NCBI RefSeq assembly: GCF_000016665.1
Contig: NC_009523.1
Span: 1-64,000, forward strand
Source: Roseiflexus sp. RS-1
GTDB taxonomy: Bacteria > Chloroflexota > Chloroflexia > Chloroflexales > Roseiflexaceae
Direction: 5' to 3'
Length of the DNA stretch: 64,000 nucleotides
How positions within the stretch are numbered: position 1 is the first letter of the stretch; the number at the start of each line of letters is the position of its first letter. The translations under genes were made by a program, and so were the position numbers. This document shows positions 7,035 through 10,886 of the stretch, one piece after another. The notes below the pieces were generated by a model that did not search any database, had not been told where the DNA came from, and saw only the letters and a program-made list of their open reading frames with translations.

Positions 7035-7766
7035 CTAGACAGGAGGCCAGGGAATATGGCGTGCAGCGCCGGGATCGGGGTAGCACCCGGTTTCGATCAG
7101 GCGGTCGAGGCGGCGGCGGAAGGCGCGCACCTCTTCGGGAGCGAGCAACCCTTCGAGTGCGCGGATGAACCGCCTGCCGTTGCGAACATCTTCACGCAAT
7201 GCGCGCAGGTCTGCCATGATCTCTTCACAGATCGGTTCGCCAGCGTAGTCCCAGAGCACGGTTCGCAACTTCGGTTCGGCGTGAAAGCAGATACCGTGGT
7301 CAATCGCCCAGAGGCGTCCATCCGTTCCCTTCAAACAATGGCCGCTCTTGCGATCGGCATTGTTCGAGAGGATGTCGAAGGCGGCCAGGCGCGCGAGTTG
7401 ATCCTCGTAGCCGCCCTCCTTCTGCATGGTGAACAGATGCGCATCCTGGTCGCAGTCGATATACAACTGCACCGAGCCATAGCCATACGGACCATCCCGC
7501 AGAACGGTCGGCGGCACAAGCGACCAGCCGAGGGCTTCGCTGAGCAGGAAGGCGGCGAACTCCCGTTGACACAACGTACCGCGCGGAAAATCCCATAGCG
7601 GGCGTTCGCCGCGGCGTGGCTTGTACACGGCAAGCCCCTGCAGATCGCCGTCGCGCACAGTGACGAGCAGCGTATAGTTACTGCTCCAGGGCATCATGCC
7701 CTGGACTTCCATTTCGCCTTTCGCCAGCAGCGCCAGCACGTCGCCGACACTCAACTCTGTGCTCAT
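7035..7766 (-). CDS. SCO1664-family protein (PI3/4-kinase-like fold)
   Basis: A 243-residue member of the SCO1664 family, which resembles phosphatidylinositol 3/4-kinase-type domains. Consistent residues: AVYKPRRGERPLWDFP (lysine-containing nucleotide-binding strand), FDILSNNADRKSGH (catalytic-loop-like Asp/Asn) and AIDHGICFH (metal-binding Asp). It is the last gene of a tight minus-strand trio with DUF3090 (1-nt gap) and a histidine phosphatase. The same three families are conserved neighbours in many actinobacteria, from my knowledge of those families. Biochemical activity is unknown; a small-molecule or protein kinase role is inference. Confidence 0.85.
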   Translation of the reverse strand: MSTELSVGDVLALLAKGEMEVQGMMPWSSNYTLLVTVRDGDLQGLAVYKPRRGERPLWDFPRGTLCQREFAAFLLSEALGWSLVPPTVLRDGPYGYGSVQLYIDCDQDAHLFTMQKEGGYEDQLARLAAFDILSNNADRKSGHCLKGTDGRLWAIDHGICFHAEPKLRTVLWDYAGEPICEEIMADLRALREDVRNGRRFIRALEGLLAPEEVRAFRRRLDRLIETGCYPDPGAARHIPWPPV

Positions 7767-7767
7767 A

Positions 7768-8280
7768 TCAATTCATTTGCGGGCAGAAGTGACCGCCGGG
7801 ATCGATTGGACGGCCACAGTTGCCGCAGATCTTTCGCCCACGGGCAACCACGCTCGCCGCGTGTTCACTCAAAGCGCGCATTTGCTGACGCGATGCACCG
7901 AAACGTGCCGTCGGCGGCTCATCATCTTCGCCGTCCTCACGGTACCCCTGCATCACCAGAATGACCATATCGCGTTCAGCATCGTACCCGATCCCCATCT
8001 GAGCAATACGAAAACGCGGTTCGATCGGTTCTTCCAGGTTCATATCGCTCGCCAGAAGCAGATCGTCGGAAGAAGAGAGGAGCGGATTCTTCTCTGCCAG
8101 TTCTTCGAGCAGGCGATCGATTGCCTGAGCAAGCGCCCGAACCTGTTCCTTCTCCGCAATGAGTGAAACCAGTTCGCGCCCACGGCGCGCCTGGATGTAG
8201 AAGACGCGCTGCCCCGGCGGACCAACTGCGCTTGCCGTAATGCGCGTCACCGGGTCGAGATCATACGTGAACTTTGCCAT
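7768..8280 (-). CDS. DUF3090 family protein with C-terminal zinc ribbon
   Basis: About 170 residues. Most of the chain matches what I know of DUF3090 (early FTYDLDPV, GPPGQRVFYIQA, then an acidic helix and a DUF3090-typical EPRFRIAQMGIGYD). The C-terminus CGNCGRPIDPGGHFCP is a zinc-ribbon half common in this family. Start is placed at ATG 8280 (MAKFTYD); ATG 8286 and an upstream TTG-type extension to 8298 are alternatives, none with a strong Shine-Dalgarno. It is the middle gene of the trio, 33 bp after the phosphatase stop and 1 nt before the SCO1664-family gene. Function unknown. Confidence 0.85.
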   Translation of the reverse strand: MAKFTYDLDPVTRITASAVGPPGQRVFYIQARRGRELVSLIAEKEQVRALAQAIDRLLEELAEKNPLLSSSDDLLLASDMNLEEPIEPRFRIAQMGIGYDAERDMVILVMQGYREDGEDDEPPTARFGASRQQMRALSEHAASVVARGRKICGNCGRPIDPGGHFCPQMN

Positions 8281-8313
8281 AGCCATACGCCAGTACAACC
8301 ACGTTGCACACCA

Positions 8314-9039
8314 CTACGCCGATGTTGGCGAGCCGGTTGTCTTTTCTGCCGACGCCTCGACGCCATTCTCCGACGCCTGATCGGTTGGCGGCGCCGATCC
8401 TGCAGATGCCGGTTGCGTCTCTTCCGGTTTCGGCTTCAGATGTGACAGGGAACCGGTATCATTATACGCCAGCAATCGTGGCCCCATCCGGGTGAACCCG
8501 ATGGCGGTCACCGAGCAGGGAGCGACTTCGAGCCGCTGGAACAGGTCGATGTGGATGCCGATATAGTACGCCGTCGCCAACCGAATGGCATCGGCATGCG
8601 ACACAACCACGATCAACCCTTTCGGGTGGCGCGCGCGCAGCGCATCGAGCGCAGTCACGATCCGCATCTGCGTTTCGCCCAGCGTTTCGCCGTTCGGGAA
8701 ACGGGTGCCGCTGGGGTAATGCTGGATGCCGGGCCACAACTCGTGTTTGTACAGTTCCTTGAGTTCGGCGCCCTGCCACTCGCCGTAGTCCACCTCTTGC
8801 AGCGCCTCGACCAACCGGATCGAGAGACCTCGCGGCGCAGCAATCGCCTCGGCAGTTTCGACGGTGCGATCCAGCGGGCTGGAATAGATCGCGTCGATCG
8901 GCAGGTCTGCCAGGCGCGCCGCCAGATTGGCTGCCTGACGCCGCCCTTCTTCGTTCAGGCGCACTCCGGGGAGACGACCGGCAAGCCGACCGTACACCAT
9001 GTCGTTTGCGCCGTGACGAACCAGTAAGAGTACTGTCAC
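8314..9039 (-). CDS. Histidine phosphatase, MSMEG_4193-like (phosphomutase family)
   Basis: Histidine phosphatase superfamily protein with the RHG motif LLLVRHGAND near its N-terminus, SSPLDRTVETA (second arginine), YGEWQGAEL, and VVSHADAIR (second catalytic histidine). A Pro/Ala/Glu-rich tail of ~40 residues follows the domain. GTG 9039 is the preferred start: GAGGG lies 7 nt upstream. The ATG at 9066 sits only 3 nt from the TATAGT -10 (9070-9075), so transcription would start within or after it. It is the promoter-proximal gene of the trio with DUF3090 and the SCO1664-family protein. Which phospho-substrate it acts on is unknown. Confidence 0.85.
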   Translation of the reverse strand: MTVLLLVRHGANDMVYGRLAGRLPGVRLNEEGRRQAANLAARLADLPIDAIYSSPLDRTVETAEAIAAPRGLSIRLVEALQEVDYGEWQGAELKELYKHELWPGIQHYPSGTRFPNGETLGETQMRIVTALDALRARHPKGLIVVVSHADAIRLATAYYIGIHIDLFQRLEVAPCSVTAIGFTRMGPRLLAYNDTGSLSHLKPKPEETQPASAGSAPPTDQASENGVEASAEKTTGSPTSA

Positions 9040-9069
9040 GCTTTTACCCTCGTCAACATTTCTCATAGT

Positions 9070-9097
9070 ACTATACCATATTTCACTGGCGCTTCAA
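9070..9097 (-). promoter_or_regulatory. Promoter of the phosphatase/DUF3090/SCO1664 operon
   Basis: On the minus strand TTGAAG (9092-9097) and TATAGT (9070-9075) are separated by 16 nt, and the -10 is extended by TGG. The predicted transcription start near 9062 rules out the ATG at 9066 as translation start. Confidence 0.6.
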
Positions 9098-9117
9098 AGA
9101 CTCGCCTGAAAAGGAAG

Positions 9118-9187
9118 TGTTCACATTTCTCCTGGGGGCAGGGGCATCTTGCCCTCGCAGGCGCGTGTGCCACCCCAGGTGTGAACA
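9118..9187. repeat. Small element with terminal inverted repeats (MITE-like), copy 1
   Basis: TGTTCACA at 9118-9125 and CCTGGGG at 9131-9137 are mirrored by CCCCAGG at 9173-9179 and TGTGAACA at 9180-9187, leaving a 35-bp core with GGGGCATCTTGCCCTCG. The core and ends recur in inverse orientation at 61,009-61,096. The element is non-coding and about 70 bp, in the gap between the phosphatase operon and the photolyase gene. Confidence 0.6.
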
Positions 9188-9359
9188 GTTCCCCCAAAAC
9201 GTCTCAGGCGTTGCACCATGAAATGCCAGGATCGGATGGGCTCATGGTTGCAGCATTTCCGCAGCACGCGCGATACACCGCCAGCGCTGCCCCGGCATCC
9301 ACCGGTTTTGCGCAGACGTATCCCCTTCTGAAGGTCGGTTTTCGTCTTGCACGATTGAG

Positions 9360-10886
9360 ATGAGTGATACGCCGGTCACAGTCTGGATTCCTGGCGACCA
9401 GTTGCTGCGTGCGCACCCGGCGATTGAGGCGGCGGAGTCTCGTTCTGGTCGTCGAAATATCCGCATTGTCCTGGTGGAAAGCGATGCGCGGATAGCGCAG
9501 TTGCCCTACCAGCGCAAGAAGATCGTCCTGATCCTCAGTGCTATGCGCCACTACGCAGCAGCGCTGCGCGAGCGCGGGTACCTGGTCGATGAGGTGCGCG
9601 CGCCGTCATTTGCGGAGGGGTTGCAGCATCACGTTGCGCAGCATCGATCGCAGCGCCTGGTGACCATGGCGGCTGCCGAGTATGAGACGCGACGCTTCCA
9701 GCACGAAACCCTCCACGCCCTTCTTGGGATTCCGGTCGACGTACTCCCGAACACGCAGTTTCTTGTCGGTCAGTACGATCCTTTCCCGGCTATCGAGCCG
9801 TCGCAGCGCGTGATCATGGAGCGCTTCTACCGCGCGATGCGCCGCCGCTTCGCGGTGTTGATCGAACCGGACGGTTCGCCGACCGGCGGGGAATGGAACT
9901 TCGACCGCCAGAATCGCCGTCCGTTGCCCCGCACGGTTGCGCCGCCGCCGCCGATCACCTTCGAGCCGGATGCGATCACACGCCAGGTGATGACCGACGT
10001 CGATGCGCGCGGCAGCGGGGTCGGCACAGCAACCGGATTTGCGCTCGCCGTCACCCACGCGCAGGCGGAAGCGGCGCTCAACGACTTCATCACCAATCGC
10101 CTGGCGGCATTCGGACCCTACGAGGACGCCATGAGCGCCACGCATGATGTGGTGTTCCACTCAATGCTCTCGCCCTACGTTAATATCGGTCTGCTCGAAC
10201 CGTTGCAGATGGTGCGCGCTGCTGAGGAAGCATACCGCACCGGCGCCGCCCCGATCCAGTCAGTCGAGGGATTCGTGCGCCAGGTCATCGGCTGGCGCGA
10301 GTATATCTACTGGCAGTACTGGCGGTTGATGCCCGCATTGCGCGATGCGAACGCCTGGAATGCGATGCGTCCGCTGCCGCGCTTCTTCTGGAATGGCGAA
10401 ACCGACATGCGTTGCCTGCGCCATGTTATCAAGCGTGCAATTGCGACCGGCTACACCCACCATATCGAACGTCTGATGGTGGTCTGCAACTTTTGCCTGC
10501 TGGCAGGAATCCGCCCTTCAGAGGTCAATGACTGGTTCCTGGCGCACTACATCGACGCCTATGATTGGGTGATGCAGCCAAATGTGATCGGTATGGGGCT
10601 GAACGCCGATGGCGGGTTGACGGCGACCAAACCGTATATCGCTTCGGCTGCGTATATCAACCGGATGAGCGACTACTGCGATGGGTGTCGCTACAACCCG
10701 AAGCAGCGCGTCGGACCGGATGCCTGTCCGTTCAATACGCTCTACTGGAACTTTTTGATCCAGCATGAAACGACGCTCCGCGCCAATCCACGGCTTGGTC
10801 CGGCAGTGCTGGGGCTGGCGCGACTCGACGCTACCGAACGCGCAGCGATCATGCGCGAGGCTGCGGGGTTGGTGGAGGGGTTGTAG
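9360..10886 (+). CDS. Iron-sulfur (FeS-BCP/PhrB-type) photolyase/cryptochrome
   Basis: A 508-residue member of the FeS-containing bacterial cryptochrome/photolyase group (prokaryotic (6-4) photolyases such as Agrobacterium PhrB). It has the N-terminal antenna domain (VWIPGDQLL, YQRKKIVLILSAMRHYA) and the helical FAD domain (FVRQVIGWREYIYWQYW, VMQPNVIGMG, YIASAAYINRMSDYC). Four cysteines at 352, 440, 443 and 456 have the same spacing as the [4Fe-4S] ligands of PhrB (350, 438, 441, 454 from the literature), so the cluster is expected. It would repair UV photoproducts using light. A TIR-bounded element starts 5 bp past the stop. A second, split photolyase set lies at 13.3-15.7 kb. Confidence 0.92.
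   Translation: MSDTPVTVWIPGDQLLRAHPAIEAAESRSGRRNIRIVLVESDARIAQLPYQRKKIVLILSAMRHYAAALRERGYLVDEVRAPSFAEGLQHHVAQHRSQRLVTMAAAEYETRRFQHETLHALLGIPVDVLPNTQFLVGQYDPFPAIEPSQRVIMERFYRAMRRRFAVLIEPDGSPTGGEWNFDRQNRRPLPRTVAPPPPITFEPDAITRQVMTDVDARGSGVGTATGFALAVTHAQAEAALNDFITNRLAAFGPYEDAMSATHDVVFHSMLSPYVNIGLLEPLQMVRAAEEAYRTGAAPIQSVEGFVRQVIGWREYIYWQYWRLMPALRDANAWNAMRPLPRFFWNGETDMRCLRHVIKRAIATGYTHHIERLMVVCNFCLLAGIRPSEVNDWFLAHYIDAYDWVMQPNVIGMGLNADGGLTATKPYIASAAYINRMSDYCDGCRYNPKQRVGPDACPFNTLYWNFLIQHETTLRANPRLGPAVLGLARLDATERAAIMREAAGLVEGL

Follow-up and report, generated by a model that had tools for sequence, protein, structure and literature searches.

A three-gene locus of Roseiflexus sp. RS-1, encoding a histidine phosphatase, a DUF3090 protein and an SCO1664 family protein, belongs to an old gene set that is common to at least three bacterial groups and is not an actinobacterial speciality. 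The locus is an ordinary inherited one in its genome, yet it is part of a widely conserved system. SCO1664 looks like a working kinase, by its predicted activity, from a branch best known in eukaryotes, and its distribution, wider than that of mshC and independent of it, takes the family out of the mycothiol frame. The operon may encode a module for reversible phosphorylation in which DUF3090 is the binding hub, a reading that we place somewhat short of an even chance. A search of open-licence literature found the trio nowhere described as a kinase-phosphatase system; the predicted kinase assignment of SCO1664, the tentative fold of DUF3090, the adjacency of DUF3090 to a DSP-type phosphatase in one lineage and the test of mycothiol independence appear to be new here.

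The three-gene locus

The window analyzed here is the whole stretch of 64,000 nucleotides at the start of the single contig, of 5,801,598 bases, that makes up the Roseiflexus sp. RS-1 genome. On the minus strand of its positions 7035-9039 lie, in order, the histidine phosphatase, DUF3090 and SCO1664 genes. The phosphatase gene (8314..9039) belongs to TIGR03848, the MSMEG_4193 family, with 268.9 bits against a cut-off of 203.85. An earlier, sequence-only reading of this DNA ended the gene at 9039, in agreement with a GTG start; an in-frame ATG upstream at 9066 is an alternative, and the 8314-9066 frame also matches His_Phos_1. The DUF3090 gene (7768..8286, minus strand) reaches 210.3 bits with TIGR03847 (cut-off 117.25) and 162.3 bits with Pfam DUF3090 (cut-off 27) over its full length, and the SCO1664 gene (7035..7766, minus strand) reaches 313.1 bits with TIGR03843 (cut-off 172.4), aligned to positions 1-253 of the 253 in the model. 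All three families are therefore where the sequence-only reading had put them, each gene being over its curated NCBIfam cut-off. Its description of a tight operon is likewise borne out: the genes share a strand, 27 bases separate the phosphatase gene from DUF3090, and a single base follows the DUF3090 stop before the ATG of SCO1664. The "clear promoter" of the same reading stands as a site and falls short in clarity: a promoter-like TTGAAG-16-TATAGT with a TG ahead of the second hexamer (9070..9097, minus strand, read from 9097 to 9070) has a modest 9 of 12 consensus matches, in a scan that returned 2 sites against 0.9 expected by chance, and such a consensus scan is not evidence of function. 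Divergent from the trio, at 9360-10886, is a gene for a deoxyribodipyrimidine photolyase-related protein (DPRP, PF04244).

Distribution and descent

Occurrence was counted, ignoring kinship, in 151 genomes of Chloroflexota, 178 of Actinomycetota and 79 of the phylum to which two named Rokubacteria loci belong. SCO1664 is over cut-off in 82 of the 151 Chloroflexota (84 at E 0.001), and DUF3090 has a match in 99, 52 of them over cut-off; the occurrence of the trio outside Actinobacteria, which the sequence-only reading had presented as notable, is by these counts unexceptional. The TIGR03848 phosphatase is over cut-off in 26 Chloroflexota genomes. At E 0.001 it is matched in 142, a number that includes many other histidine phosphatases, to judge from the 13 of 14 control genomes that match too. 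SCO1664 (over cut-off) and DUF3090 occur together in 79 Chloroflexota genomes, SCO1664 alone in 3 and DUF3090 alone in 20. Scattering of the genes in other Chloroflexota, which the sequence-only reading had named as a finding that would speak against it, is seen in part: of the 79 genomes with both genes, 54 have the pair within 3 kb, and in the other 25 the distance is larger or the contigs differ. The phosphatases over cut-off sit within 3.5 kb of SCO1664 in 24 of 26 cases; of the remaining two, one (G104) is 28 kb off on the same contig and the other (G043) has its SCO1664 on a different contig. Among the 178 Actinomycetota, SCO1664 and DUF3090 are each found in 81 genomes (77 and 73 over cut-off, respectively), 80 of which are shared. 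SCO1664 is also over cut-off in 38 of the 79 genomes of the Rokubacteria phylum.

Gene neighborhoods were compared in the best 80 loci from a scan of named genome contigs, a set from which rarer phyla may be absent. Profiles built from these same best 80 loci detected DUF3090 at 76 of them and the phosphatase at 58. Both flanks are full (>2.5 kb on the upstream side, >1.5 kb on the downstream side) at 58 loci; 57 of these have DUF3090 within 3 kb and 45 have the phosphatase, both on the strand of SCO1664. Clustering of the locus genes gave no fourth steady partner, nothing beyond the trio exceeding 16 of the best 80 loci, and clustering of 31 actinobacterial loci likewise returned, among clusters with a steady position, lineage-bound neighbors only. 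These include ABC transporters and homoserine dehydrogenase in Chloroflexota, and PAC2, ETF, FrhB-like and CorA proteins in actinobacteria, among others.

A tree of 101 SCO1664 proteins (68 from Chloroflexota, 31 from Actinomycetota and 2 from Rokubacteria) was obtained by a quick search that leaves many deeper forks open. The SCO1664 of the window clusters with 7 other Chloroflexota rows, Chloroflexaceae and Oscillochloridaceae among them, at 98% SH-aLRT, and phylum labels change 3 times on the tree against a mean of 28.6 when shuffled. The window copy was inherited and not newly transferred, since its SCO1664 groups with other Chloroflexales; a recent transfer from Actinobacteria is rejected on that grouping together with the count of label changes. 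That transfer versus descent, for which the sequence-only reading had proposed a phylogeny, is a live question finds no support. The two Rokubacteria sequences sit among actinobacterial rows (open fork, 91), a placement that would fit transfer to Rokubacteria.

Relation to mycothiol

SCO1664 has been placed among the signature proteins of actinomycetes, a link to mycothiol being suspected, and is stated to lie invariably close to mshC (PMC4255298). The published closeness is true of nearly all sampled mycothiol makers and not of the SCO1664 family. MshC is over cut-off in 15 of 178 Actinomycetota genomes; each of the 15 also has SCO1664, and in 14 of them the two are within 5 kb. SCO1664 is matched in 66 more Actinomycetota genomes without MshC over cut-off, and MshC is over cut-off in 0 of 151 Chloroflexota and in 1 of the 13 genomes that contain the named loci of actinobacteria and Rokubacteria. 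The sequence-only reading had argued, from the absence of mycothiol genes nearby, against a role confined to that thiol, and the counts agree with it (MshC in 15 Actinomycetota genomes against 81 with SCO1664). An accessory system of the mycothiol pathway, as suggested by the actinomycete linkage to mshC (PMC4255298), would account for the constant presence of SCO1664 in MshC genomes and its proximity to MshC in 14 of the 15. It is nonetheless very improbable, and already close to refuted, in view of the 66 Actinomycetota and 82 Chloroflexota genomes with SCO1664 and no MshC over cut-off, the 38 SCO1664 genomes of the Rokubacteria phylum, and the 12 of 13 named-locus genomes without MshC.

The best MshC match in the Roseiflexus genome scores 358.7 bits against a cut-off of 485.1, and the protein is not counted as MshC because NCBIfam prefers cysS (366.5 bits) over mshC (359). 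Proteins of this kind, scoring 340-446 bits in many Chloroflexota and several Actinomycetota, were considered as MshC and rejected as short cysteinyl-tRNA-synthetase relatives; family f10 has SCO1664 without one. The one with 358.7 bits, a second, shorter cysteinyl-tRNA-synthetase relative at G000:C1:4178450-4179589 (L114 6385-7710, minus strand), faces a GT4 glycosyltransferase gene (L114 7639-8844) head to head. It is possibly a novel cysteine ligase.

The SCO1664 protein as a predicted kinase

At the level of sequence, SCO1664 matches Pfam PI3_PI4_kinase (PF00454) below the gathering score (18.2 bits against 27.1, E 0.0025), and single-protein searches of PDB sequences found nothing for it or for DUF3090. 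A profile search of the same sequences with SCO1664 gave FAM20A as the best match (E 0.0025), in an alignment that covers the KP, VPPTV.R, DR and D motifs, and PI4KII beta at E 0.03. The kinase fold named in the sequence-only reading now rests on a structure model, beyond the weak Pfam match. In structural rankings of this AF2 model (built from 22 sequences; pLDDT 87.3) by Foldseek and VIA-align, PI4KII comes first and FAM20 follows: PI4KII beta aligns with VIA Z 19.2 and rmsd 3.6 over 230 of 243 residues at 18% identity, and FAM20 with Z 16.4 over 222 residues. Further matches are H. pylori CtkA (Z 13.7), HipS-HipT (12.1) and HipA (about 10).

The putative active site is strongly conserved. 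All 101 SCO1664 sequences have K49, E69, D138 and D156, which by motif and FAM20A alignment would correspond to the ATP-binding lysine, the glutamate of the alpha-C salt bridge, the catalytic aspartate and the metal aspartate, respectively. The likely catalytic loop, NNADRKSGH (residues 135-143; 7338..7364, minus strand), was assigned by conservation and by profile alignment to the FAM20A loop, and its N136, D138, R139, K140 and H143 are all present in 101 of 101 sequences. In the DHG motif (residues 156-158; 7293..7301, minus strand), a putative metal site recognized by conservation, D156 is invariant and G158 is found in 97 of 101; past this site K166, R168 and W172 are conserved in 100 to 101 of 101. 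On the model and these residues SCO1664 looks like a compact, active-looking kinase nearest to type II PI4-kinases and FAM20, with activity predicted.

The associated phosphatases

The phosphatase assignment of the sequence-only reading is secure: TIGR03848 is over cut-off, and the catalytic residues of histidine phosphatases, R17, H18, R67, E91 and H157 in ATG numbering, each occur in 75 to 79 of 79 relatives. The best solved relatives of the window protein are phosphoserine phosphatases (4ij5, E 5.6e-19). Three mycobacterial proteins, MSMEG_4192, Rv2134c and Rv2135c, are taken here to be members of the trio, Rv2135c presumably as a TIGR03848 member. Rv2135c of Mycobacterium tuberculosis is reported as a tetrameric acid phosphatase with a pH optimum of 5.8 and a predicted operon link with a UppP homologue (PMC3866925). 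Its hydrolysis of small phosphates is described as weak, with Km values of about 8 to 14 mM; activity is weak on PEP, F6P and glycerol phosphate, none is reported on G6P, 3PG or ADP, and phosphoserine does not appear among the substrates that the Results describe (PMC3866925).

A different type of phosphatase accompanies DUF3090 in family f13, where DUF3090 is found in 5 of 6 sampled genomes and SCO1664 is matched in 0 of 6. In all 5 f13 genomes with DUF3090 a DSP-type phosphatase directly adjoins it on the same strand. The CxxxxxR loop is present in all 4 aligned proteins, a profile from these 4 picks up the fifth, and Pfam matches on 2 of them are PTP-SAK and CDKN3. It is mainly because of this adjacency that DUF3090 is read as a phosphatase partner in its own right. 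Another arrangement without SCO1664 was seen in family f21 (L119, L126, L127 and L128), where DUF3090 adjoins a related gene of 326-345 aa at all 4 loci. In L128 this neighbor is a D-isomer 2-hydroxyacid dehydrogenase.

The DUF3090 protein

The AF2 model of DUF3090 (built from 38 sequences; pLDDT 90.1) consists of two beta-beta-beta-alpha repeats and a C-terminal tail. Its match to PURA (PUR-alpha repeats I-II) has VIA-align Z 9.5 over 113 residues, somewhat above the Z of 7 to 8 that models free of any clear match reach; an uncharacterized cyanobacterial protein (Z 6.8) and then Whirly and MRP1/2 (Z 5 to 6) follow. Foldseek gave no match under E 0.001 with this model (best E 0.029, to another fold), and a profile search of PDB sequences found no related match, for which reasons the assignment of a PUR-like two-repeat fold is tentative.

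Residues at 93% or more in 97 DUF3090 sequences are G22, G25, R27, F29, Q32, E45, K46, Q48, P87, G150, R151 and N172, with Ser, Thr and Tyr all absent. DUF3090 as the kinase's own substrate was considered and is not favored, no Ser, Thr or Tyr reaching 93% in the 97 sequences. The zinc ribbon of the sequence-only reading is present in the window protein and is dispensable in the family. A C-terminal CxxC...HxC ribbon (7771..7827, minus strand, by alignment) terminates at the nearly invariant Asn172, and the ribbon is missing from 14 of 97 proteins, yet N172 is present in 93 of 97. Thirteen proteins (L051, L056, L060, L063, L065, L066, L067, L069, L074, L076, L082, L084 and L087) have the ribbon excised and the terminal xxNG stretch kept, in 12 of 13 followed by a new aromatic tail (YYWT-like). 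Nine end at Asn, mostly at exactly N172 (window, L033, L058, L073, L088, L103, L140, L141 and L147), and most others have Gly after it. A 1009-aa open frame with DUF3090 in G146 was set aside as a probable chance frame around an ordinary gene. In L075 (Candidatus Aquidulcis MAG, 8750-9931) phosphatase and DUF3090 lie within one open frame, which may reflect a lost stop codon and not a fusion, because a purine-rich, ribosome-site-like stretch remains ahead of an internal ATG.

A candidate phosphorylation module and its alternatives

In the proposed module SCO1664 would be a catalytically intact kinase of the PI4KII/FAM20 branch, as model and conservation predict, and the histidine phosphatase would take off the phosphate that it adds, as gene linkage and an intact active site suggest. 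DUF3090 would bind the phosphorylated target or nucleic acid and bring kinase and phosphatase there. We infer this hub role from three features of DUF3090: it is widely retained, it pairs with phosphatases of two unrelated folds, and its invariant residues include basic and amide ones, while Ser, Thr and Tyr are missing from them. As the target we consider a protein more likely than a small metabolite. The system would be ancestral in Chloroflexota and Actinomycetota, and the mshC neighbor would have joined later in one actinobacterial branch. Counted in favor of the module are the family cut-offs, the gene order, the co-occurrence of SCO1664 and DUF3090 (near-perfect in Actinomycetota), the structural and profile matches of SCO1664 to PI4KII and FAM20, the conserved kinase and phosphatase residues, the lack of hydroxyl residues among the most conserved positions of DUF3090, the DSP-type pairing in f13 and the poor action of Rv2135c on small phosphates. 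Counted against it are the 20 of 151 Chloroflexota genomes in which DUF3090 occurs, and so must function, in the absence of SCO1664, the separated pair in 25 of 79 Chloroflexota genomes, the 13 of 58 full-flank loci with no phosphatase near the pair, the weak PUR-like match of DUF3090 and the doubtful standing of the L075 frame as the sole apparent phosphatase-DUF3090 fusion. A more specific version, which we consider rather unlikely as a whole, makes DUF3090 a PUR-like reader of the product of a minimal PI4KII/FAM20-like kinase that recruits its lineage's own phosphatase, of histidine or DSP type; the system would be old in Chloroflexota and Actinomycetota and later lent to the mshC locus of mycothiol producers and to Rokubacteria. 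The pairing of DUF3090 with two unrelated phosphatase folds makes a concrete hypothesis that is cheap to test.

The leading structural match, PI4KII, raises the alternative that SCO1664 phosphorylates phosphatidylinositol or an inositol phosphate and that the phosphatase reverses this. Actinomycetes make phosphatidylinositol, and inositol-1-phosphate synthase is widespread: 139 of 151 Chloroflexota and 129 of 178 Actinomycetota genomes have it, as do 68 of 79 in the Rokubacteria phylum. With kinship ignored, it accompanies SCO1664 in Actinomycetota (76 of 81 genomes with SCO1664 versus 53 of 97 without) and weakly so in the Rokubacteria phylum (36 of 38 versus 32 of 41), but Chloroflexota have no such trend (73 of 82 versus 66 of 69), and three SCO1664 genomes rated 98-100% complete (G142, G012 and G024) are without the synthase. 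A phosphoinositide substrate of SCO1664 is possible, and the reading as a whole seems improbable. Equally improbable in our view is a cycle in which a small metabolite (a sugar, an amino acid or glycerate) is phosphorylated by the kinase and dephosphorylated by the phosphatase, under regulation by DUF3090. The relatedness of the phosphatase to phosphoserine phosphatases and the gene beside DUF3090 in f21, a 2-hydroxyacid dehydrogenase in L128, speak for it; the reported weak action of Rv2135c on PEP, F6P and glycerol phosphate, with none on 3PG or G6P (PMC3866925), and the lack of any steady metabolic neighbor among the best 80 loci speak against it. A HipA-like toxin-antitoxin or defense system is hardly credible; HipA shares the kinase fold, and the structural matches of SCO1664 include HipA and HipS-HipT, but these are much weaker than PI4KII and FAM20, and the tree tracks phyla, unlike that of a mobile system.

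Presumed mycobacterial members of the trio also show up in transposon screens for the effects of dibucaine and rifampicin. MSMEG_4192 insertions are reported as over-represented under dibucaine (PMC10127668), and a table of rifampicin-altered BCG mutants includes Rv2134c (PMC11329110); MSMEG_4192 is further entered in a ClpC1 interactome table (PMC10433963).

Comparison with known systems

The type II PI4-kinases, alpha and beta, provide the best structural match to the SCO1664 model, although their solved chains are longer (about 340-490 residues versus 243) and the profile match, at E 0.03, comes without sequence-level membership. The FAM20 secretory kinases are the second structural match, and FAM20A the best PDB profile match; SCO1664 differs in being bacterial and in having no FAM20 family match in Pfam. 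The DUF3090 model has a tentative resemblance to nucleic-acid-binding folds of the PUR-alpha/Whirly kind, matching PURA and then Whirly and MRP1/2, at 6-9% identity, with no profile match and with an added zinc ribbon. Rv2135c belongs to the same histidine phosphatase superfamily as the window phosphatase, with Arg, Glu and His catalytic residues as described (PMC3866925), but has RHA where the window phosphatase has RHG. Unlike the SCO1664-DUF3090-histidine phosphatase neighbors of actinomycetes, the Roseiflexus copy is in a Chloroflexota lineage, with no mshC nearby or over cut-off in the genome; it shares with them the same families over cut-offs, the same order and the same strand.
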